From contig JAPKBW010000006.1 of the NCBI GenBank assembly GCA_028823235.1, positions 1 to 64,000 of the forward strand: a stretch of 64,000 nucleotides of DNA, in the 5' to 3' direction. The stretch's first letter is position 1; each line of letters starts with the position of its first letter. A model generated the notes under the pieces. It ran no database searches, was not told the origin of the DNA, and saw only the letters and a list, made by a program, of their open reading frames with translations. Shown here piece by piece: positions 4,093-15,786 of this stretch. The position numbers were made by a program, and so were the translations under genes. This stretch comes from Longimicrobiales bacterium (GTDB lineage: Bacteria; Gemmatimonadota; Gemmatimonadetes; Longimicrobiales; Gaopeijiaceae).

Positions 4093-6012
4093 TCAGAATA
4101 TCCGGTACGCTATGAACGCTCCGGCGTACCCCAGAAACAGCATGTAGCTGAACTGGAGTATGGGCCACTTCCAGCCCGCCGTCTCACGCCGCATCACCGC
4201 CACCGTGGACATGCACTGAAGCGCGAATGCGAAGAAGACGAGCAGTCCGATCGCCGAGCCGCGTGTGAGATCTCGCTTGAGTATCTCCTGGAGCGCGACC
4301 GCCTCTTCGTCAGCAGTTTCGACACCGTAAATCGTGCCGAGCGTCCCCACAATCACTTCGCGAGCGGCCAGAGACGTCACGAGTCCGACGCCGATCCGCC
4401 AATCAAAACCCAGCGGACGGATCACCGGCTCAATCACCTGTCCAATCTGGCCTAGCGCACTCTCTTCGATGCCGGGTGCGCCGAGCTCGGTGCGCGGAAA
4501 CTGCATCAGTATCCACAATACGATTGCGACCGCAAAAATGACCCGGCCGGCACGGCGTAGAAAAATCTTGCTGCGATCGAGCAATCTCAACGCCAAGGTG
4601 CGCAGCGATGGAATCCGATACGGAGGCAGCTCCATCAGAAACGATGTCGGGTCGGCCTTCAAAATCGTCCGCTTGAGGATAAAGGCGGTTCCGATCGCCG
4701 CGACGATACCGAGGCCGTAGAGCCCGAGCATCGTAGCCGCCTGCGTGCCAAAGAAGGGCCCGAGGATGGGCTCGTTGGGGATGAAGGCCGCAATGAGCAG
4801 GGCGTATACAGGGAGTCGCGCCGAACACGTCATGAACGGAGTCACGAAGATCGTGGCCATCCGATCGCGTTCATCATCGATCGTGCGGGCGGCCAGGATC
4901 GCCGGTATCGCACACGCGTACCCCGAGAGCAGGGGCAGGAAGGCGCGACCCTGAAGGCCAACCCGGAACATCATCCGGTCGGCGATCACAGCAGCCCTCG
5001 CCATGTAGCCCGAGTCCTCGAGAATGCCCAGAAACAGGAAAAGGATGAGGATCTGGGGCAGGAAGATCACCACAGATCCGACACCGGCCCACACGCCATC
5101 AACCAGGAGAGATCGGTACCACGTATCCGGCATCGTTGTGGATAGCCACTCACCCGAGGTGCTGATGCCGAAGTCGATGCCATCCATGAGCGGCACCGCC
5201 CACGTGAAGATCGACTGGAATACGAGCAGGACCACGCCGAGGAATATCAGCGGGCCCCATACACGATGTAGAAAGATGCTGTCGAGACGATCACTCATTG
5301 CAGAAGGCCCCGGCGGCACGAAGTCCGCACCTTGGACCACCTCGCTGACGAGTTTCCTTCTCGCTGCGAACGCGTCGACAACCGGAAGGGAAACGCCTCG
5401 GCCCTGGTTGCTGAGCGTGCGCTCAACGTACTCAGTCGGGCCATGGGACGTGTCGATGCCCGCGAGATACGCACGCACCCCATCGACGCCTTCCCCACTC
5501 CGGGCGCTCGTCCGGGCAATGTCGACACCCAGACGCTCGGCGAGCGCCTCATCGTTCACGCTGCCTCCACGCTCTGAGAGCTCGTCACACATGTTCAGCA
5601 CGAGCAGTGTCGGGAGTCCCAGTTCCAGGACCGGCTCGACAAGCATCAACTGGTTCTCGAGACGCGTGGAGTCCACGATCAGGACCAGTGCATCGGGCGG
5701 ACGAATGCCCTCGACCTTGCCTTCGAGAACGTCGCGCGTGACCCGCTCATCGAGCGTTCGTGCGGAGAAGCCATGTACGCCGGGAAGATCGACCAGATCG
5801 ATCTCACGGTTTGTGTCGAGCCGTACCTGCCCGACGTGCTTCTCGACGGTTACGCCGGGGTAGTTGGCGACCTTCTGACGAAGCCCTGTCAGCTGATTGA
5901 AGAGGGTCGTCTTCCCTGAATTGGGAGGACCCACAAGAGCAACGAGTGGCTCGTGCCTCTCGGCTATCGCAACGGTCGCACCATCAGCGACGGGGGGGTG
6001 CAACTCATCCAA
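4093..6012 (-). CDS. feoB: Ferrous iron transporter FeoB (copy 1)
   Basis: A 639-residue FeoB: an N-terminal G domain, a linker, then a polytopic Gate/core domain. The G1 loop is GPPNSGKT (residues 28-35), G3 is DLPG (75-78) and G4 is NMCD (140-143). The membrane part has the pore signature CAIPAI near residue 367 and the second Gate signature around CSARLPVYAL. The family imports Fe2+ across the inner membrane with GTP hydrolysis. The open frame starts with TTG, with no good ribosome-binding site; there is no nearby in-frame ATG that keeps the G1 loop, so TTG is retained. It follows feoA by 15 bases. G1 reads GPPNSGKT rather than the commoner GNPNxGKT. Copy 2 lies 1.4 kb away. Confidence 0.95.
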   Translation of the reverse strand: MDELHPPVADGATVAIAERHEPLVALVGPPNSGKTTLFNQLTGLRQKVANYPGVTVEKHVGQVRLDTNREIDLVDLPGVHGFSARTLDERVTRDVLEGKVEGIRPPDALVLIVDSTRLENQLMLVEPVLELGLPTLLVLNMCDELSERGGSVNDEALAERLGVDIARTSARSGEGVDGVRAYLAGIDTSHGPTEYVERTLSNQGRGVSLPVVDAFAARRKLVSEVVQGADFVPPGPSAMSDRLDSIFLHRVWGPLIFLGVVLLVFQSIFTWAVPLMDGIDFGISTSGEWLSTTMPDTWYRSLLVDGVWAGVGSVVIFLPQILILFLFLGILEDSGYMARAAVIADRMMFRVGLQGRAFLPLLSGYACAIPAILAARTIDDERDRMATIFVTPFMTCSARLPVYALLIAAFIPNEPILGPFFGTQAATMLGLYGLGIVAAIGTAFILKRTILKADPTSFLMELPPYRIPSLRTLALRLLDRSKIFLRRAGRVIFAVAIVLWILMQFPRTELGAPGIEESALGQIGQVIEPVIRPLGFDWRIGVGLVTSLAAREVIVGTLGTIYGVETADEEAVALQEILKRDLTRGSAIGLLVFFAFALQCMSTVAVMRRETAGWKWPILQFSYMLFLGYAGAFIAYRIF

Positions 6013-6027
6013 TAGAGGAGGACCGCC

Positions 6028-6315
6028 TTAGTCCGCGTCCTGGAACTGCGAGAGAATTTTGACGCAGAGGCAGGCCGCCGTCTCGCGTCGCAGCGCAAGG
6101 AGTGATCCATCCACCGAGACAATTGGATCGCCGCCCGGCGAGGATCGCACGGGGCAGATCCGGCATCCTGGCAGTACGCCACGCTCCAGAAGCGGCTCCG
6201 CCAGGTGTGCCGGCAGATCGATGCTGACGAGCTCAACTTCCTGACGCAGAGGGATGTCCCCCAGCCTCAGATCGGCCCCGTCCTGCTCGTTCTTCGCGAC
6301 CGGCAATGCCTGCAC
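6028..6315 (-). CDS. feoA: Ferrous iron transport protein FeoA
   Basis: A single SH3-like FeoA domain: LRLGDIPL at the start, a GVLPGC turn, and VDGSLLALRRETA, the usual FeoA C-terminal signature. It is the small cytosolic partner of FeoB, encoded 15 bases upstream of feoB1. I start the gene at a GTG (6315) that has AGGAGG 12 bases upstream, giving about 95 residues. An upstream ATG at 6354 would give 108 residues, but it has no ribosome-binding site and lies only 3 bases from a Fur-like inverted repeat. The extra N-terminal residues have no counterpart in typical FeoA. Either start leaves the domain intact. Confidence 0.88.
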   Translation of the reverse strand: MQALPVAKNEQDGADLRLGDIPLRQEVELVSIDLPAHLAEPLLERGVLPGCRICPVRSSPGGDPIVSVDGSLLALRRETAACLCVKILSQFQDAD

Positions 6316-6357
6316 GATGGACTTGTTCCTCCTCGTCTCACCCTGATACGACATGGA

Positions 6358-6536: not shown

Positions 6537-7355
6537 TCAGCTCTGCTGATACATGTGAACATCGCGCTGAGGGAACGGCATCGAGCATCCCGCAGCCTCG
6601 AGGCCTTCTTTCAGCCCTCGCGTCAGATCCCACCGTGTCGTCCAGTAGTCCTCGGCCTTTACCCAAGGCCGGACGACGAGATTGACGGAGGAGTCTCCCA
6701 ACTCATGTACAGCGACAACCGGCGCCGGATCAGAAAGCACCCGTGTGTCGGAGGAGATGATGTCCATGCATGTGCGCACCGCTACACCGAGGTCATCACC
6801 GTAATCCACACCCATGACGAGGTCGATGCGCCGAGTGTCGTTCGTTGAGAAATTCTTGATCGTGGTGCCGAAGATCTGCGAATTCGGCACCCGAATCTGA
6901 ACGTTGTCTGCCGTATGCAGGATACACGAGAAGATGCCCACCTCCTTCACTACGCCGGAACCACCGCCCACCTCCACGAAGTCGCCGACGTCGAAGGGGC
7001 GGAAGGTCAGCAGCATGATGCCCGCCGCAAAATTTGAAAACGTGCCTTGGAAGGCGAGGGCGATCGCCAGACCAGCGGCACCGAGCACTGCGACAAACGA
7101 TGCCGTGCTGATACCGAGCACCCCCATTGCGGTTACCGCCACAATCACGATTACCGACACATGAATGAGTCCCGACAAGAACGGAATCATGATCTCGTCG
7201 ATCGGACCCTTCTTGAGCGCCTTGCGAGCAAACGCCCGAACCCATCCGGCGAACATCCACCCGAATATGAGAACGGCTATAGCGGCCACGAACTTCGGGG
7301 CCCAGGAGGCCACGGCCTCGGTCGCAAAGGCCATGAATGCTTCAAAATCCATCAT
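6537..7355 (-). CDS. MscS-family small mechanosensitive channel (copy 1)
   Basis: A 272-residue MscS core: three N-terminal membrane helices, a glycine/alanine-rich pore helix (AVLGAAGLAIALAFQGTFSNFAAG, about residues 85-108), and the cytoplasmic beta domain starting with FRPFDVGDFVEVGG. These features define small MscS channels, which release solutes on hypo-osmotic shock. The ATG at 7355 has GAGG seven bases upstream and is preferred to an upstream TTG. It is 57 bases downstream of feoB2 and reads the same way, so it may be cotranscribed with the iron regulator. A second, more distant MscS gene lies at 57-58 kb. Confidence 0.93.
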   Translation of the reverse strand: MMDFEAFMAFATEAVASWAPKFVAAIAVLIFGWMFAGWVRAFARKALKKGPIDEIMIPFLSGLIHVSVIVIVAVTAMGVLGISTASFVAVLGAAGLAIALAFQGTFSNFAAGIMLLTFRPFDVGDFVEVGGGSGVVKEVGIFSCILHTADNVQIRVPNSQIFGTTIKNFSTNDTRRIDLVMGVDYGDDLGVAVRTCMDIISSDTRVLSDPAPVVAVHELGDSSVNLVVRPWVKAEDYWTTRWDLTRGLKEGLEAAGCSMPFPQRDVHMYQQS

Positions 7356-7412
7356 TGGATACCTCAACACGCGTTAGGAGAGGCCAGCACCTGCAGCGCA
7401 GGTCATGCGACT

Positions 7413-9641
7413 TCAGCCCGCGACCAGTCTCCAGATCTGGGCCACCAGGAAGCACACTACGACACCCATCACGACAGGCATCATGGTGGCGACCGCGGTC
7501 CATTTCAAACTCCGCGTTTCCTTGAAGATTGTATAAATCGTCGTAGAACACGGGTTATGGAGAAGGCTGAACAACATGAGGTTCACCGCCGTGAGCAACG
7601 TCCAGCCCCCGGCCCTCAGGTACGCACCGGTCGTCACGAGCGAGTCCTCCTCGAACATGACACCAGCCCCGGCACCCTCTCCCGCGAGTTCAGGAGTAAC
7701 GAGAACGGTCAGCATCAGAATCGTGGGGATCACGATCTCGTTCGCTGGGATTGCGACGACATAGGCCAACAGGATGACCCCGTTTAGCCCGAGGACGAGC
7801 CCCGCAGGCTCGAGCCAGTCGACTGTGTACTGGGCAATGCTCACCCCGCCGAAAGTGATGTTCGAAACGAGCCAGATCGCGGCACCGGCCGGGATGGCGA
7901 AGATGATGGCGCGCCACAGCACAATCAGAGTGCGATCGATAATCGACGTATACAGCGTCTGGAGGACGCGGGGGGGGCGATACGGAGGTAGCTCGAGGCT
8001 AAAGCTGGTCGCCTCGCCGCGCAGCACCGTGCGAGACAGCAGCCAAGATGAGAAAAACATCATCACGATGCCGAGCACTGCGATGCCCACGACTGCTCCC
8101 GCACTCACAAGCCCTCCCAGGTGCGTCGGTGCGAGGGCTCCAATAAAGATTGTCGCGATCAGGATCTGGGTCGGCCACCTTCCGTTACATAACGAGAAGT
8201 TGTTAGTGATGATCGCGATGAGCCGCTCTCGCGGGCTGTCGATGACTCTCGTTGCAACGACGCCGGCGGCGTTGCAACCGAATCCCATGCACATCGTGAG
8301 CGCCTGCTTCCCATGTGCCCCTGCTTTCTGAAACATCGAGTCCAGATTGAAGGCCACGCGCGGGAGGTATCCGAAGTCCTCCAAAAGCGTAAACAGCGGA
8401 AAAAAGATCGCCATCGGAGGCAGCATGACACTGATGACCCATGCCGTCGCCAGATATACGCCGTCGAGCAGAAAGCCATCGATCCACCACGGCACGCCTA
8501 TCGCTGCCGAAATGCCCTTGAGCCAGGTCCAGCCGTGGTCGATGAGAAGAGTCGCCAGCATCGATGAAGGAACGTTGGCTCCCTCGATGGTCAGCCAGAA
8601 CACCACTGTTAGGATGAACAGCATCAGCGGGAACCCGAAGGTTCGACTCGTTAGCAGCTCGTCGAGCTTCCGGTCGAAAGAGAACCCGACCTTCGCAAGC
8701 CCTGTTTTCTGCACCTTGTGAGCGACCTGCTCTGCAGCGGCGTACGCGTGCTCAGTCACGATGTCGTGAAAGTCAGGGGGCAATTCCCACCGTAGTCGCG
8801 TGGCCACGTCGAGCAGCCGCTCAGACTCTTCCTCGGGGGGCGGCGACACACTGGCCCATGATTCGTCGTGGATAAGTTGCCCCAGTTCCCCTGATCGCAC
8901 GGCTTCCTGAACGGCCTCGTCGGCGTTCAGCAGGCGGAGGGCAACCCATCGTGCGTTAGGCACCTCGGGGTAAACCTCTTCCACGGTGGGGACGAGGCCG
9001 GCGATCGCTCGCTCCACCTCCGGGGCGTGTTCCGCGAGGCGATACGGCGTACCCACTCGTTCACCCGTGGCGACCTGGTGCGCTGCGGTCAGCAGCTCCT
9101 CGATGCCGATGCCCTCGCGAGCCGTGCCGGGTACCACGGGGACCCCAAGTTCCTTCTCGAGTTTTTTCGGGTCCACCGCGATTCCGTGTCGCCTGGCCTC
9201 ATCCATCAGGTTCAGGAAGACGACCACGCGATCCGTAATCTCAAGTATTTGAAGAACGAGATTCAGATTTCGCTCGAGGCGGGTCGCGTCGACCACTACG
9301 ACCGTCACGTCTGGTCGACCGAACAGAACGAAGTCGCGCGCGACTTCCTCATCCACGCTGCCGGCTTGCAGAGAATAGGTGCCTGGAAGGTCTACGACCT
9401 TCACGCGATTGCCTTCGTGAGCGAATGCGCCCTCGGCACGAACGACCGTCTTACCCGGCCAGTTACCCGTATGCTGACGAAGTCCTGTGAGCTGATTGAA
9501 GACCGTGCTCTTTCCCACGTTGGGATTCCCGGACAGAGCGACCAGATAGTCCCACTTGTCTGGGCTCAGCCCGAGGCGAATCAGGCTACTCTGGCGGTGT
9601 TCCGCACACGACCCGCACGGACTGGTTGAGAGGGTGGCCAT
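7413..9641 (-). CDS. feoB: Ferrous iron transporter FeoB (copy 2, CNAAG subclass)
   Basis: A 742-residue FeoB of a different subclass from copy 1. The N-terminus has a CxxC pair (C9, C12). The G domain has GNPNVGKS (38-45), DLPG and NLMD, followed by a long helical linker and a polytopic membrane domain. The Gate motif is GFGCNAAGVVATR (near residue 455) rather than the CxxP form of copy 1, and the second motif is NNFSLCNGRWP. This CNAAG form is known as a separate FeoB branch. Its ATG shares one base with the stop of the upstream regulator (TGATG), which indicates translational coupling. No separate feoA is beside it; the upstream regulator supplies FeoA-like domains. Confidence 0.95.
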   Translation of the reverse strand: MATLSTSPCGSCAEHRQSSLIRLGLSPDKWDYLVALSGNPNVGKSTVFNQLTGLRQHTGNWPGKTVVRAEGAFAHEGNRVKVVDLPGTYSLQAGSVDEEVARDFVLFGRPDVTVVVVDATRLERNLNLVLQILEITDRVVVFLNLMDEARRHGIAVDPKKLEKELGVPVVPGTAREGIGIEELLTAAHQVATGERVGTPYRLAEHAPEVERAIAGLVPTVEEVYPEVPNARWVALRLLNADEAVQEAVRSGELGQLIHDESWASVSPPPEEESERLLDVATRLRWELPPDFHDIVTEHAYAAAEQVAHKVQKTGLAKVGFSFDRKLDELLTSRTFGFPLMLFILTVVFWLTIEGANVPSSMLATLLIDHGWTWLKGISAAIGVPWWIDGFLLDGVYLATAWVISVMLPPMAIFFPLFTLLEDFGYLPRVAFNLDSMFQKAGAHGKQALTMCMGFGCNAAGVVATRVIDSPRERLIAIITNNFSLCNGRWPTQILIATIFIGALAPTHLGGLVSAGAVVGIAVLGIVMMFFSSWLLSRTVLRGEATSFSLELPPYRPPRVLQTLYTSIIDRTLIVLWRAIIFAIPAGAAIWLVSNITFGGVSIAQYTVDWLEPAGLVLGLNGVILLAYVVAIPANEIVIPTILMLTVLVTPELAGEGAGAGVMFEEDSLVTTGAYLRAGGWTLLTAVNLMLFSLLHNPCSTTIYTIFKETRSLKWTAVATMMPVVMGVVVCFLVAQIWRLVAG

Positions 9642-10690
9642 CAGGCGACGTCCTCGGACAGAGCGGCGCTCATCGAAGGGACGTCAATCCGGATCCACGT
9701 GGCCTGCTCGCGTCGCAGTGCGATCAGCGCACCACGAATCGAGTACGCGATCGGGTCACCTGACGCGCTGCTGAACACCGCCTCGATCTCCGTGCCTCGG
9801 ACCACTCCGAGGTCCAGCAGCCGCCTGCGCTGGGAGCCTTGGCACGCAGGCGAAATCCCGACAACCTGAGCGGACTCCCCAGGGGACAGATCGGCGAGGG
9901 TCGCTACAGGAGCATCGGCTCGCTCACCCTCTGGGAGCATCCGGACCGTAACGTTGCGACAGACGACATTGTCGAGCGTGCGCTCACGCCCGTGTGATCG
10001 CAGGCGAACCCCGCGGTCACTTCTTTCTGCCACTTCGAGTCGAGTCCCCAGGTCGAGGCCATCCCGTAGAAGCGCGTCGTAAATGACACGGGGTTCATCT
10101 TCCAGATGTACGATCTCAAATGTGCGCCCAACGTCCGCGCTCACGAGCGACAGACGTTCGACCACCGGCAGCTCTCCACCCGCTGTGGGAATCGGATCTC
10201 CATGGGGATCCCAAGCTGGATGCCCAAGCCGGGCCGCCAGCGCCTCCGCCTCTTCCGCGGACAGGGCGTGCTCCATTCTTTCTGCTTCCGCATGCCACTC
10301 ACCTGCGGGCACCCCGGTCCGGTCCGCCAGGTACCGTTCCCAAAGACGATGCGCACGGACCAGCCGCAGAGCTGAGTTGCGGCCCGCGTCCGTGAGCTTC
10401 GGGCCCGAAGCTTCGTTGCGTACCAACAGGGACTCGGCCAGCAGCTTCAACAGGTCGGCTGCCCGGCCTGTGGACACCTCGAGTTGCCCGGCAAGACTTT
10501 CAAGGGAGACATCTCTTCCAATGCTCTCACAGGTATAGACGTGTTTGACCGCATCCTCGAGAAGCACCCGTTCGCTGAGGCGCACAAGTCTCAGGTACCT
10601 GGCCACGACACCCCACTTCGGCCAAACAAGCAGTCCTGATAGAACACAGAGGACGCCGAAAACGGTGAGTGCGATTGTAGGATTAAGCAT
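9641..10690 (-). CDS. Membrane-anchored DtxR-family regulator with two FeoA-like domains
   Basis: A 349-residue fusion. Residues 4-24 form one hydrophobic helix. Residues 40-105 are a DtxR-type winged helix. Residues 105-170 are the DtxR dimerisation/metal domain, with H114, E118 and HAEAERMEH (H133, E137, E140, H141) and the conserved DPHGDPIP end. Residues 175-255 look like a first SH3/FeoA-like domain, and 260-337 is a clear FeoA domain (LLDLGVVRGT, IRGALIALRREQ). The position equal to DtxR C102 is glutamate (E137), as in MntR/SirR-type members, so Mn2+ or Fe2+ sensing is possible. ATG 10690 has GGAG eight bases upstream; a GTG at 10708 is also open. An iron box lies 40 bases upstream, implying autoregulation. 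The gene overlaps feoB2 by one base. Confidence 0.9.
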   Translation of the reverse strand: MLNPTIALTVFGVLCVLSGLLVWPKWGVVARYLRLVRLSERVLLEDAVKHVYTCESIGRDVSLESLAGQLEVSTGRAADLLKLLAESLLVRNEASGPKLTDAGRNSALRLVRAHRLWERYLADRTGVPAGEWHAEAERMEHALSAEEAEALAARLGHPAWDPHGDPIPTAGGELPVVERLSLVSADVGRTFEIVHLEDEPRVIYDALLRDGLDLGTRLEVAERSDRGVRLRSHGRERTLDNVVCRNVTVRMLPEGERADAPVATLADLSPGESAQVVGISPACQGSQRRRLLDLGVVRGTEIEAVFSSASGDPIAYSIRGALIALRREQATWIRIDVPSMSAALSEDVA

Positions 10691-10730
10691 GGTGCCCGCT
10701 CCGCGCACGGCATTGCGCGATGATGAGAAT

Positions 10731-10748: not shown

Positions 10749-10854
10749 TTCATCTCACGGGAAGTTTCGTCAACCCGTACCGGTCCGTGGACACGCTGCC
10801 CTCACGGATCGACAGTGTGTTGCCCACCTCGCGGGGCGGCGCGAATCTCAACGT

Positions 10855-13104
10855 ATGCCGTTGCAATCACATCCTCTCTCAGCGAGCCCCTGGCTTGCCA
10901 CCGCACTCCTTGCCGTGGGGCACCTCCACGCTTCCGGGCAGATTCCCGACGTCTCGTCGATCTGTTCTGACCGCCCGCCCGCCACGGGGGAGTCGCTCTT
11001 CTCCGCCGACCGGGCAGTGCCGGAGCGCACCGGGTCAGATGCAGCCCGCCCGGCGTCCGACCTCTACTGCATGGACCTCTTCTCGACGACCCGAGGAGGA
11101 CAAGCTGCCGGGGTGATCGAGCTTCGAAAGCCATGGTCCCCCTTCGGGGTCACGGTCACGGCCGAAGGGAGACATCGACACGATTTGAAAGCATGGATCG
11201 CTCGACTGCCTGACCCCTCATCCCTCGGGCCCTACACGACCTACGTGGCCTGGGCGACGCCCCTCGCGCTCGATCCCGTGATCAAACTCGGCGAGGTAGC
11301 GAACGGTCTGAACAACCTCGGCGAAGTGGCGTTCAACAAGTACCTGGTCTGGGTGACTGCGGAAGCGTCCGCCGATGTCGTAGAGCGGAGCGGGCCGCTG
11401 ATCATCCGAGGTCGCTCCCCGTCGAGCCGCATGGAAGCGCATGACCTCCTTGCCCTAGCACCGTCGGCAGAGATGGGTGTGCCCGAGATGACGGGCGATG
11501 GGAGCGACTGGACGATGCCCCCGATGTATGCCGGCGTCCCAATGCTGCCAGGGGTGATGCAGTCGCGGCCCGTCGTCGCGCCATTCCGGCCTGCGGTGGA
11601 TCTGAACACGCTCCCCGCTGCCCGGCCTCGCGACATCGTGACGCTGCCCGATGGGGGCACGCTGGACCTGACTGCCGGCTTCGTCCGGAAATCGGTGGCC
11701 GGTCGGGACCTCGTGATGATGGCATTCAACGAGCAGATCCCGGGGCCGCTGATCGAGGTCACGGAAGCCTCGACGATCTTCGTGAACTTCACAAACGACA
11801 CGCCGCTCCCAGCGGCCGTCCACTGGCACGGTCTGCGGCTCGACAATCGCTACGACGGAGTCCCGGGGGTCACGCAGGACCCAGTACAGCCAGGCGAAAG
11901 CTTCCGGTACACGATCCACTTCCCCGATCCCGGGATCTACTGGTACCACCCGCACCATCGCGAAGACGTGTCTCAGGAGTTGGGACTCGCGGGCAACATG
12001 CTCGTCGAACCGCTGGCCTCAGACTACTACAACGAGGTCGACCACGAAGAGGTCGTCATGCTGGACGACCTCCTGCTCGGCGCTGACGATGTGGTTCCGT
12101 TCGGCGAAGAGTCTGCGAACTACATGCTCATGGGACGCTTCGGGAACGTCTTCCTCACGAACGGTGAGCCGGAGTACGGACTCGACGTAGATCCCGGCGA
12201 CGTCGTCCGATTCCATTTCACAAACGCATCCAACACCCGCACCTTCAACATCGCGTTCCGCCCCACGGACGCCCCCAATGGCGAGCCGCTGCCGATCAAG
12301 GTCATCGGATCAGACGTTGGCAGATTCGAGCGGGAGTCGATGTCGGAGAGCGTCACTCTGGCCCCCGCTGAGCGGTACGTCGTCGAGGTACTGTTCCCCG
12401 AGGGCGGAGCTTACGCGATGACCAACCGCGTGCAGGGCATCAACCACCGTCAGGGACTTTTCCTGGAGGAGTCGGCCGTGCTGGGCCAGATCACGGTTTC
12501 GGGTGCCACCTCTGAGAGCGCCTCGGATCACGCTCATGACTTCGAGTCCCTTCGGACCCATGACGCGGTCGTCGAGGATATCGACCGCTATCGACCGCTC
12601 TTCGACGGACCCACCGACCACGAGCTCGTCCTTACACTCGAGGTCGACAACCTGCCGATGGCAATCGAACAGTCCATGAACCTCGACTGGATCTACTTCA
12701 ACCCCGTCGAATGGAGTGGCACGATGCCCGTCATGAACTGGGCAACGAGCGGGGCCGAGGTCCAGTGGCTTCTACGGGATCCCCGAACTGGAGCGCAGAA
12801 CGACGCGATCGACTGGGCGTTCAAGGTCGGAGACGTGGTGAAGGTGCGGGTCACCAACGATCGGGCCGCGTTCCACTCCATGCAGCATCCCCTGCACATC
12901 CATGGACAGCGCTTTCTTGTTCTTGAACAGAACGGTGTGCCGAACAAGAACATGGTCTGGAAGGACACCGTCCTGTTGCCGGCGGGGTCCACAACGGACA
13001 TCCTCCTCGAACTGTCCAATCCGGGGCGATGGATGGTGCACTGCCACATCGCCGAGCATCTCGAATCCGGAATGAAATTCGTCTTCGACGTCGAAGGAAA
13101 CTGA
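10855..13104 (+). CDS. Exported multicopper oxidase with extra N-terminal domain
   Basis: A 749-residue protein with a signal-like N-terminus. All copper sites are visible: HWH (323-325) and HPHH (365-368) for the trinuclear centre, HPLHIHG (678-684), and HCHIAEHLESGM (729-740) with the Cys-His pathway and an axial Met. It is therefore a laccase/CueO-like periplasmic oxidase; ferroxidase, cuprous oxidase and phenol oxidase activities are all possible. Residues about 50-230 precede the first cupredoxin domain and form a separate domain I cannot assign. It contains a conserved-looking PDPSSLGPYTTYVAWAT segment. The ATG has no clear ribosome-binding site. The next gene begins two bases after the stop, indicating an operon. 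The iron box upstream hints at metal control. Confidence 0.92.
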   Translation: MPLQSHPLSASPWLATALLAVGHLHASGQIPDVSSICSDRPPATGESLFSADRAVPERTGSDAARPASDLYCMDLFSTTRGGQAAGVIELRKPWSPFGVTVTAEGRHRHDLKAWIARLPDPSSLGPYTTYVAWATPLALDPVIKLGEVANGLNNLGEVAFNKYLVWVTAEASADVVERSGPLIIRGRSPSSRMEAHDLLALAPSAEMGVPEMTGDGSDWTMPPMYAGVPMLPGVMQSRPVVAPFRPAVDLNTLPAARPRDIVTLPDGGTLDLTAGFVRKSVAGRDLVMMAFNEQIPGPLIEVTEASTIFVNFTNDTPLPAAVHWHGLRLDNRYDGVPGVTQDPVQPGESFRYTIHFPDPGIYWYHPHHREDVSQELGLAGNMLVEPLASDYYNEVDHEEVVMLDDLLLGADDVVPFGEESANYMLMGRFGNVFLTNGEPEYGLDVDPGDVVRFHFTNASNTRTFNIAFRPTDAPNGEPLPIKVIGSDVGRFERESMSESVTLAPAERYVVEVLFPEGGAYAMTNRVQGINHRQGLFLEESAVLGQITVSGATSESASDHAHDFESLRTHDAVVEDIDRYRPLFDGPTDHELVLTLEVDNLPMAIEQSMNLDWIYFNPVEWSGTMPVMNWATSGAEVQWLLRDPRTGAQNDAIDWAFKVGDVVKVRVTNDRAAFHSMQHPLHIHGQRFLVLEQNGVPNKNMVWKDTVLLPAGSTTDILLELSNPGRWMVHCHIAEHLESGMKFVFDVEGN

Positions 13105-13105
13105 C

Positions 13106-14527
13106 ATGAGACTCCACACCACAGCCCTCTCTGCAGCACTGGCCTGCCTCGCTCTCACGGCAGTTGGGCCCGACCAGGTGGCAGCTCAGAATTTCGACGA
13201 GTTCGTCGCAGTGCCGATGGGCACAGTAGCCCTCACGCATGCGAAGGTCATCGATGGGACCGGTGCCCCGGCGATGCTGGATCAGACCATTCTGATTGAA
13301 GGAGATCGAATCATCGCCATCGGGCAGTCTGGTTCAGTCCACGTGCCTGCCAATGCCAACATCGTCGACCTCACGGGCCAGACGGTGATCCCAGGACTCG
13401 TGGGGATGCACAACCACTCCTACTACACGGGTGGAAGCGGCCGCGCGGCGCAGCTCTCCTTCTCAGGCTCACGGCTCTACCTGGCCTCGGGTGTCACGAC
13501 AATCCGTACCACGGGCGCTCAGCAGCCGTATGCGGAACTGAACCTCAAAAGGGAAATCGATACGGGCAACGTCATTGGCCCGACGATGTTCACGACCGGC
13601 CCATACCTGACCGGCGAGCAAGTCGGTGGTGGAACCATGACCCAGCTCAGCGATCCTGAACAGGCGCGCCGTGTAGTGCGCTACTGGGCTGAAGAGGGCG
13701 TCAGCTGGTTCAAGGCCTACACGTGGATCTCACGCGCGGAGCTCGGCGCGGCGATCGACGAGGCGCACAAGTTGGGCGTTAAAGTCACGGCTCATCTGTG
13801 CTCTGTGGGATACCGGGAAGCCGTCGCGCTTGGCATCGACAACGTCGAACACGGACTTTTCGCGAACAGCGAGTACGCGCCCAACAAGGTTGAGGACGAG
13901 TGTCCTGCCGGCTTCCGGAACAGCTTCCCGGACCTCGATGTGAATGGTCCCGAAGTGCAGGCGACGTTCCGGGACATGATCGACAACGGTGTACCCATGA
14001 CGTCTACGCCGGTGGTCTACGAGATCTCGGTATCTGGCCGCCCCCCCATCGACGAACGCATCTTTGATGTACTCGCACCTGAGATTGCTGAAGAAGTCCG
14101 TGCGATCTCCGTCGCACGACGGGCCGGACAAGGAGCGATTCCGCCTGCGCAGTACGCTAAAGCAATGGAGTACGAGCGTGCCTTCGTGGCCGCTGGCGGT
14201 CTTCTGGCGGCTGGCGTAGATCCAACCGGATACGGGGCAGCCCCTCCAGGATTCGGTGACCAGCGTAACTACGAATTGCTGCTCGAAGCAGGCTTCTCTG
14301 CCCCCGAGGTCATCCAGATCATGAGTCTGAACGGGGCCAAGGTTTTGGAAATCGACGGCGAAGTCGGAAGCGTTGCGACCGGCAAGATCGCGGATCTCGT
14401 GGTCATCGACGGTGACCTCGAAGCGGTCGGGAATCTCCACGGGACGAGCATCGTGTTTCGACACGGTATCGGCTGGGACTCACCCAAGCTGATTGAGTCG
14501 GTTCGCGGAGTGGTCGGAATCCGCTGA
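13106..14527 (+). CDS. Exported amidohydrolase-superfamily protein
   Basis: A 473-residue protein with a signal peptide (about residues 1-27, ending VAAQNF) and an imidazolonepropionase/dipeptidase-like amidohydrolase fold. The metal motif HNH is at 102-104; further ligands are likely the His in VTAHL, the His in NVEHG, and the Asp in AAGVDPTG. The C-terminal part returns to the beta domain (GKIADLVVIDGDL). GAAGGAAA just upstream of the ATG is a good ribosome-binding site. It begins immediately after the multicopper oxidase stop and precedes the metal permease-like gene. The family hydrolyses cyclic amides or dipeptides; the substrate is not predictable here. Confidence 0.88.
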   Translation: MRLHTTALSAALACLALTAVGPDQVAAQNFDEFVAVPMGTVALTHAKVIDGTGAPAMLDQTILIEGDRIIAIGQSGSVHVPANANIVDLTGQTVIPGLVGMHNHSYYTGGSGRAAQLSFSGSRLYLASGVTTIRTTGAQQPYAELNLKREIDTGNVIGPTMFTTGPYLTGEQVGGGTMTQLSDPEQARRVVRYWAEEGVSWFKAYTWISRAELGAAIDEAHKLGVKVTAHLCSVGYREAVALGIDNVEHGLFANSEYAPNKVEDECPAGFRNSFPDLDVNGPEVQATFRDMIDNGVPMTSTPVVYEISVSGRPPIDERIFDVLAPEIAEEVRAISVARRAGQGAIPPAQYAKAMEYERAFVAAGGLLAAGVDPTGYGAAPPGFGDQRNYELLLEAGFSAPEVIQIMSLNGAKVLEIDGEVGSVATGKIADLVVIDGDLEAVGNLHGTSIVFRHGIGWDSPKLIESVRGVVGIR

Positions 14528-14555
14528 CCCCCACGCTAAGACCGGTCCGATAGTC

Positions 14556-15215
14556 ATGGGCTACCTCATTGCGGCGGCGGCGGCACCGCTCCTCGGACCG
14601 GTGCTGTATCGCATACTACATGGTCACCCGAAGGCCGTTCGATTCGTTGACGGATCGGTCTATGTGGCCGTGCCGCTTCTTGTCATCTGGCAGGTGTTAC
14701 CAGATGCCTGGGCTTCGCGCAGCTTAATCGCCCTCGTCGCCCTCGTGGCGGGATTCACAGTTCCCGCGATTGTGGAAAAAGCTTCTCACGCACTAGCTCA
14801 GCAGACCGATAACGTTGCCATGGTCATAGGGCTATCCGGACTCGTGCTCCACGCCATGCTGGAGGGAGCAGCCTTCGTCCCTAGAGACGGAGCGGTCGAT
14901 GGGCCCTTCGCGATCGCGGTAATCCTTCACCGTATCCCGGTTAGCCTCGTGATCTGGTGGCTCATTTGTCCGCGGTTCGGCTCATCGCTTGCTGCCGCAG
15001 GCGTCGGGTCCATCGTCCTAGCAACTCTGGCCGGATACGGAGTCGGCACCGAGGTTCTGGGAGGAATGCACAGCGGCGGCGCTGAGATCTATCAGGCGTT
15101 CGTCAGCGGATCGCTGGTTCATGTGGTCTTCCATCAGGGCCGCCACGATCATGATCATACCCATGAAAACGAACACGCTCACGACCACCGACAAGAGCAG
15201 GACAGCCATGACTGA
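14556..15215 (+). CDS. ZIP-like metal permease with His-rich C-terminal tail
   Basis: A 219-residue polytopic membrane protein with about seven helices and a histidine-rich cytosolic or periplasmic tail (residues 194-219: HDHDHTHENEHAHDH). Helix 4 has H99-A-M-L-E103-G, close to the ZIP HNxxEG motif. The next helix has H125-R-I-P where ZIP proteins have HE/HNxP, but it then reads V-S instead of H/E-E/G. This suggests a ZIP-family relative with part of the binuclear metal site lost. An in-frame start at 14493 would overlap the amidohydrolase; the ATG at 14556 begins directly at the first helix and is preferred. Its stop overlaps the next gene by eight bases. Confidence 0.65.
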   Translation: MGYLIAAAAAPLLGPVLYRILHGHPKAVRFVDGSVYVAVPLLVIWQVLPDAWASRSLIALVALVAGFTVPAIVEKASHALAQQTDNVAMVIGLSGLVLHAMLEGAAFVPRDGAVDGPFAIAVILHRIPVSLVIWWLICPRFGSSLAAAGVGSIVLATLAGYGVGTEVLGGMHSGGAEIYQAFVSGSLVHVVFHQGRHDHDHTHENEHAHDHRQEQDSHD

Positions 15216-15786
15216 CCGAGCCACCGGGGCCTCGACCCTTCGCCGGGCGCTTCTCACTGCCGCCGCAATCGCTCTTGGCATCGGGACCTGGGAAACGGAG
15301 GCAGAAGCGCAGCAAACTCAGGACGGCCCGATGATTCAGTCTGCTGGGGCAGTTTTTTCCGTGGACACCGATTTTTTCACCCCTACCGATCGTGACTACA
15401 AGGTCGCCTTCGAAATTGCACAGCCGTCCTCTTCTCCGGACCAGTTAAACCCCACCATCAACACGGTCGCACGCTTTCTGAACATGCACGCCCAGGCGGG
15501 GGTGTCTGAGGATCGACTCAGCGGAGCGATCGTCGCGCACGGGCCAGCCTCCTTCGAGCTCCTCGACAATGAGGCCTACCGCGCCCGGTTCGGCGTCGAC
15601 AACCCGAACGCTGAACTCATCAAGGAACTCATCGCAAATGGGCAGCCAGTGCTCCTCTGTGGCCAAAGCGCCGCATCGAGGAACGTGCCCACGGAAGGTC
15701 TCATCCCAGGGGTTCAGGTCGCCCTTTCGGCGATCACCGCCTTCATGCTGCTCCAGGAACAGGGATATAGCGTAAATCCCTGGTAG
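15208..15786 (+). CDS. Exported DsrE-family-like protein
   Basis: A 192-residue protein with a signal peptide (residues about 1-34, ending ETEAEAQQ). The body has the alternating strand/helix pattern of DsrE/DsrF-like proteins, with AIVAHGPASFELL and one cysteine in PVLLCGQSAASR (C151), the position of the active cysteine in DsrE/YchN-like proteins. Some members carry persulfide sulfur; in an exported copy the role is unclear. The ATG at 15208 has CAGGA upstream and overlaps the permease by eight bases, so translation is coupled. It is the last gene of the multicopper oxidase unit. Confidence 0.75.
   Translation: MTDRATGASTLRRALLTAAAIALGIGTWETEAEAQQTQDGPMIQSAGAVFSVDTDFFTPTDRDYKVAFEIAQPSSSPDQLNPTINTVARFLNMHAQAGVSEDRLSGAIVAHGPASFELLDNEAYRARFGVDNPNAELIKELIANGQPVLLCGQSAASRNVPTEGLIPGVQVALSAITAFMLLQEQGYSVNPW

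Follow-up and report, generated by a model that had tools for sequence, protein, structure and literature searches.

Characterised transporters of the ZIP family carry metal into the cytoplasm. The ZIP fold is composed of a scaffold formed by TM2, 3, 7 and 8 and a moving transport domain formed by TM1, 4, 5 and 6 (PMC10372143). The metal site of these proteins varies, in that hZIP1, hZIP2 and hZIP9 have a Lys at a TM5 position and no second metal site, and in hZIP2 this Lys is critical for transport (PMC9530640).

The locus described in the present work lies in a window of 64,000 nucleotides (the whole stretch of DNA that was analysed) from the genome of a marine Gemmatimonadota bacterium, which comprises 3.1 Mb in 90 contigs. 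It encodes a small permease which an initial annotation had described as ZIP-like, with an altered metal site and a histidine tail, and had grouped with three neighbouring genes in a four-gene metal/sulfur system of the envelope. Genes for FeoB and a DtxR-FeoA fusion lie on the minus strand, followed on the plus strand by genes for an oxidase, an amidohydrolase, the permease, a DsrE-like protein, an aminotransferase and an epimerase. The principal features are as follows.

7413 to 9641, minus strand: FeoB (Pfam FeoB_N/C, Gate)
9641 to 10708, minus strand, divergent: DtxR-type metal-binding domain fused to FeoA (Pfam Fe_dep_repr_C and FeoA; synteny)
10800 to 14544, plus strand: oxidase-amidohydrolase two-gene cassette (blastn, matching another genus at about 95% DNA identity)
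10855 to 13104, plus strand: multicopper oxidase with an N-terminal extension of about 250 aa (Pfam Cu-oxidase_3/_2; motifs HWHG, HPH, HPLHIH and HCHIAEHLESGM)
13106 to 14527, plus strand: exported amidohydrolase (Pfam Amidohydro_1; metal ligand motifs MHNH, FKA, TAH, VEHG and GVDP)
14556 to 15215, plus strand (ATG at 14556, stop at 15215): ZIP-derived permease of 219 aa, with seven predicted helices and without the ZIP TM8 (hhalign, AF2, Foldseek)
15208 to 15786, plus strand (ATG at 15208): exported DsrE/F-like protein with a single cysteine, Cys151, in LCGQ (Pfam PF02635, 1.2e-9)

The permease start follows the amidohydrolase stop by 28 bp. The oxidase is intact and keeps all four copper motifs, and the amidohydrolase is likewise intact and keeps its metal ligands. 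The N-terminal extension of the oxidase (10855 to 11650, about 250 residues) has no Pfam match and is conserved in relatives. Two Feo systems lie nearly adjacent on the minus strand (4093 to 6354 and 7413 to 10708), with an MscS-type channel gene between them; the first consists of FeoA and FeoB and the second of FeoB and the DtxR-FeoA fusion, which has an N-terminal hydrophobic segment, and the pair of systems recurs in related genera (L083 and L086, where L numbers denote loci of relatives).

Homology of the permease to ZIP transporters

Scanned as a single sequence, the window permease gives no match to any Pfam or NCBIfam model, and a search of PDB sequences with the permease profile gives none up to an E-value of 10; these searches were replaced by a profile-profile comparison. 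When a profile of 36 family members is aligned by hhalign with eight ZIPs of the same order, the match extends over 189 columns with an E-value of 5.5e-10, and an unrelated CDF control reaches a probability of 0.4%. The HAMLEG of TM4 and the HRIPVS of TM5 are in register with HAFFDG and HKVPAG of the local ZIPs. The Pfam Zip model matches 16 of the 36 members (best E-value 7.8e-9), the window protein not being among them, and no member scanned singly exceeds the model's cut-off of 35.1 bits, the best reaching 31.2; the window's genome gives no match to this model. Homology between the permease and the ZIPs is thus well supported at the level of sequence families, and the ZIP-like character proposed initially is borne out by the profile comparison.

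The structural comparison is less decisive. An AlphaFold model built from 36 sequences, with a pLDDT of 87.4, replaced an earlier model from 18 sequences with a pLDDT of 78.6, and for both models the top PDB structures found by Foldseek are those of BbZIP, with a probability of 1.00 but a TM-score of only about 0.42 and an E-value of 8e-3. The TM-scores to BbZIP do not rise with the better model, and the structural equivalence of the permease to a ZIP is regarded as moderately supported.

The permease family was found in 81 of 298 genomes of the phylum and in 19 of 119 genera, although a few of these, with the weakest matches, may represent ordinary ZIPs. The relatives recovered by sequence come mostly from metagenome assemblies of Gemmatimonadota, and none was found on a plasmid. 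Genes in the relatives were called with a simple codon-usage script, except that the GC-rich loci L039, L040 and L137 are represented by tblastn matches only. One contig labelled as Rhodospirillaceae (L022, PBPM01000072.1) carries this Gemmatimonadota locus and is probably misbinned.

Metal site, helices and histidine tail

The residues of the permease that bear on metal binding are located as follows, all on the plus strand.

14850 to 14864: predicted TM4 metal ligands H99 (14850 to 14852) and E103 (14862 to 14864), aligned with the TM4 H..D/E of ZIPs
14928 to 14933: TM5 H125-R126, the equivalent of the His-Lys of ZIPs that lack M2, aligned with HKVPAG (PMC9530640)
15120 to 15134: TM7 H189 (15120 to 15122) and H193 (15132 to 15134) in SLVHVVFHQ, identified by conservation
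15144 to 15212: His-rich C-terminal tail, predicted to be cytoplasmic, identified by His count and the positive-inside pattern

The M1 ligands, namely the His and acidic residue of TM4 and the His of TM5, are present and conserved across the 36 members. H99, H125 and H189 are invariant, H193 is nearly so, and position 103 is occupied by Glu, replaced only by Asp; H99 and E103, which the initial annotation had described as kept, both fall in the fourth helix. The acidic ligands of M2, in contrast, are missing, with R126 and V129 standing in their place and the TM5 motif HRIPVS being free of acidic residues. Because hZIP1, hZIP2 and hZIP9 also lack the M2 acids, this absence is not decisive against membership in the ZIP family, and because those proteins combine a Lys with the lack of a second site, the loss of the TM5 acids constitutes a known ZIP variation (PMC9530640). 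The earlier description of the metal site as altered therefore stands insofar as the second-site acids are lost, but not insofar as it implied an oddity. Residue 126 is Arg in all of the 36 members except three fused ones, in which it is Gln, and the presence of Arg rather than Lys is the local difference.

The model from 36 sequences contains seven helices, the last spanning residues 174 to 203, and no hydrophobic segment follows residue 195 of the window permease, so that it has no TM8. Since TM8 is a scaffold helix (PMC10372143), the helix that is missing belongs to the scaffold rather than to the transport domain. Seven helices with no hydrophobic segment beyond TM7 make the permease a divergent and shortened protein that is ZIP-derived but not a standard ZIP. 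The last 31 residues contain 10 histidines, in agreement with the number of added histidines first noted, and the last 25 contain 8, an enrichment with a chance probability of about 1e-7 at a His frequency of 2.5%. A His-rich end is found in most family members, although its length varies and in some it is reduced to RHDHRH. The average loop charges follow the positive-inside pattern and alternate in the way expected of a ZIP whose N-terminus is outside, which places the tail inside the cell; the tail is accordingly predicted to be cytoplasmic, and not in the envelope.

Fused relatives and the origin of the free-standing permease

In about 35 of the sampled Gemmatimonadota genomes the family match is the start of a far longer open frame, mostly of 570 to 770 aa. 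All five of the long frames that were scanned have an ArsP_1 (PF03773) match after the ZIP part, four above the cut-off and one, degenerate, below it. Against the NCBIfam model CuZnOut_SO0444 (NF033936), which has a cut-off of 300 bits, two fused proteins score 174 and 193 bits and the degenerate third scores 34. The motif CSCGVVP is present in nine of ten fused proteins read, and the fused proteins carry, between TM7 and the ArsP_1 part, the TM8-like hydrophobic segment that the window permease lacks. No ArsP_1 gene is present in the window protein or anywhere in its genome.

In a tree rooted on canonical ZIPs, all free-standing copies fall into a single clade (support 100/99) nested within a grade of fused proteins; the fused L068 is the first to join this clade (95/90), followed by further fused clades at a deepest fork behind the split that is weak (82/51). 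One sequence, L017, was left unclassed as fused or free-standing because its open frame runs off the contig. Because the free-standing copies are nested inside the fused grade, the window permease looks like a split-off ZIP half which would have lost TM8 as well as the exporter while retaining its His tail, and a single split that dropped both TM8 and the ArsP_1 domain appears to be the simplest reading of the tree.

Proposed function of the permease

The reading which we favour, with a probability of roughly 0.6, is that the permease is a divergent, single-site, seven-helix ZIP importer, that it represents the N-terminal half of an older two-domain ZIP-ArsP_1 transporter of the SO_0444 type which was split once in the phylum, and that its neighbours (the oxidase-amidohydrolase pair and the DsrE-like protein) are independent modules. 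The permease, which keeps the transport-domain helices TM1, 4, 5 and 6, would import a single divalent ion from the periplasm to the cytoplasm, with Zn(II) as the most likely metal and Fe(II) as a possible one. The ion would bind at a single site of the M1 type formed by H99, E103 and H125, with R126 taking the position of the second metal, like the Lys of hZIP1, hZIP2 and hZIP9, and the His tail that follows TM7 could catch the metal as it leaves the site on the cytoplasmic side. Since TM8 forms part of the ZIP scaffold, it is also conceivable that the seven-helix form does not transport, or that it needs a partner.

The neighbours of the permease family are nearly all metal genes, and they point in turn to Fe, Zn and Cu. 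Fused members in one family, such as that in L074, lie in a cluster with CopC, CopD, MbnH, MbnP, ZrgA, two COG0523 GTPases, a Fur-like regulator, SCO1 and PCuAC. Dense copper/zinc gene clusters of this kind surround the ZIP-ArsP fusion in both L074 (1 to 14663) and L075. Amidohydrolase genes adjoin some of the fused members, but they are given no weight here, since genes of this kind seem to be common in the phylum. Among free-standing members, one is beside a CDF gene (L079) and another beside a gene for a DUF411 protein (L080).

An alternative for which we see a rather small chance is that the free-standing permease does not transport at all and acts in the membrane as a sensor or chaperone for metal, which it might, for instance, feed or report to DtxR-FeoA. 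The loss of TM8, the position of R126 beside the site and the His tail would all suit such a role, and the DtxR-FeoA gene is conserved by synteny near the permease in related genera, and in several genera the permease is placed near the DtxR-FeoA/FeoB pair. This proximity is direct and divergent only in L086, however, where the permease adjoins the DtxR-FeoA gene without an oxidase or amidohydrolase; in L036, L083 and L087, guaA or other genes intervene, and the free-standing members in L079 and L080 are not near Feo genes. The invariance or conservative replacement of H99, E103 and H125 across the 36 members, moreover, fits the retention of ion handling.

Association of the permease with its neighbours

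A less probable alternative is that the four genes form one periplasmic system for copper or iron and sulfur, in which the oxidase would oxidise the metal, the permease import it, the DsrE-like protein carry sulfur and the amidohydrolase free a chelator. In favour of such a system, the quartet is kept at nine of the ten loci fetched from the window's genus (L026 to L035, with DsrE a remnant in L033) although its proteins diverge to 45-80% identity, and the trio of oxidase, amidohydrolase and permease, without DsrE, occurs in L024, L025, L081 and L082, in two further genera. Across the phylum sample, a comparison of coordinates placed the oxidase next to the permease in 12 genomes, which belong to three genera. 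The flanking DtxR-FeoA, aminotransferase and epimerase genes are largely conserved too, however, so that retention of the quartet reflects general synteny. The synteny survey that had been suggested with the initial annotation found the quartet only in the window's genus and its pieces apart elsewhere, the oxidase-amidohydrolase pair moving alone and the permease lying near Feo genes without the other three. The four-gene system proposed for the envelope is not borne out, and a four-gene unit is rejected by synteny: the oxidase-amidohydrolase pair, the permease and DsrE are three separate modules.

The separateness of the first module is seen most clearly in its DNA. Positions 10800 to 14544 match two genomes of another genus at 95.5% and 95.2% identity over 3.7 kb (blastn), whereas the window's genus-mates are only about 72-74% identical across the same region. 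The match breaks off sharply 11 bp upstream of the permease start codon, and the copies in the other genus have no permease or DsrE beside them. These identities indicate that the oxidase and amidohydrolase genes are a two-gene cassette that has moved between genera. The cassette, whose copies elsewhere lie in L133 (6605 to 10349) and L136 (6228 to 9964), has different flanks in the different genera.

The DsrE-like gene overlaps the permease gene by 8 bp in the window, and its product matches Pfam DsrE above the cut-off, has an N-terminus that is leader-like as judged by eye, and contains one Cys, in an LCGQ that is invariant in intact copies, all of which confirms the overlapping, exported, single-cysteine neighbour originally described. 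The 8-bp overlap is not universal, since in several genus-mates the DsrE match starts about 50-190 bp past the permease match. Of 298 genomes, 46 carry the gene, in most cases with no adjacent permease, and it stands alone in L134 and L135; no DsrEFH or TusBCD partners were recognised among the listed neighbours, and the only link of the locus to sulfur is the DsrE fold. Two further observations concern this family: in L135 (6132 to 7208) a match to DsrE overlaps a frame that was called as a membrane protein beside an ApbE-like gene, a possible fusion, and in L077, which belongs to another family of the class, a single gene separates a ZIP-ArsP fusion from a weak DsrE-like gene (7310 to 7837) on the opposite strand.

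Implications and comparison with known systems

The least probable alternative is that the permease exports or exchanges metal. Hints in that direction come from the His tail, from neighbours such as the CDF, DUF411 and copper genes, and from the efflux domain of the SO_0444 type to which its relatives are fused. Against it, characterised ZIPs move metal inward, and fused or divergent members also lie near acquisition-type genes for ZrgA, COG0523 proteins and TonB receptors. A broader and more tentative proposal, which we hold to be possible though doubtful, is that Gemmatimonadota possess a two-domain transporter in which a single-site ZIP importer and a Cu/Zn exporter of the SO_0444 type are joined in one chain that perhaps exchanges or sorts metals, and that its split in one lineage left a working seven-helix minimal ZIP; if so, the loss of TM8 would show that the ZIP scaffold is reducible.

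The family adds to the ZIPs a branch whose member in the window was missed by Pfam and NCBIfam scans. The fusion of a ZIP to an efflux-type permease is new in this analysis, and no description of a ZIP without TM8, or of a ZIP-ArsP/DUF318 fusion, was found in the literature searched, subscription papers lying outside the search. A natural seven-helix ZIP would provide a test case for the roles of TM8 and of the second metal site. The locus also cautions that genes which stay together need not form one system, as the quartet resolved into three modules once more genera were compared.

Of the known systems, the DsrE/DsrF-like family (PF02635) resembles the downstream gene product in its domain and single cysteine, but this product is predicted to be exported and is free-standing, and the nearby genes include no recognised Dsr or Tus partners. 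The ArsP_1/SO_0444 Cu/Zn efflux permeases (PF03773, NF033936) correspond to the C-terminal domain of the fused relatives, including the CSCGVVP motif, although these relatives score below the NCBIfam cut-off and the domain is missing from the window protein. BbZIP (PDB 5TSA, 5TSB, 7Z6M) is the closest structural match for both permease models, but it has eight helices and a binuclear site, whereas the window permease has seven helices and one predicted site. With ZIPs (SLC39, PF02535) of the hZIP1/hZIP2/hZIP9 type the permease shares profile homology, the TM4 H..E, a TM5 His followed by a basic residue, and the replacement of M2 acids by hydrophobic residues. It differs from that type in having Arg (Gln in some fused members) rather than Lys, in the His residues of TM7 (SLVHVVFHQ), in the lack of TM8 in the free-standing forms, and in that the window protein is unrecognised by Pfam.
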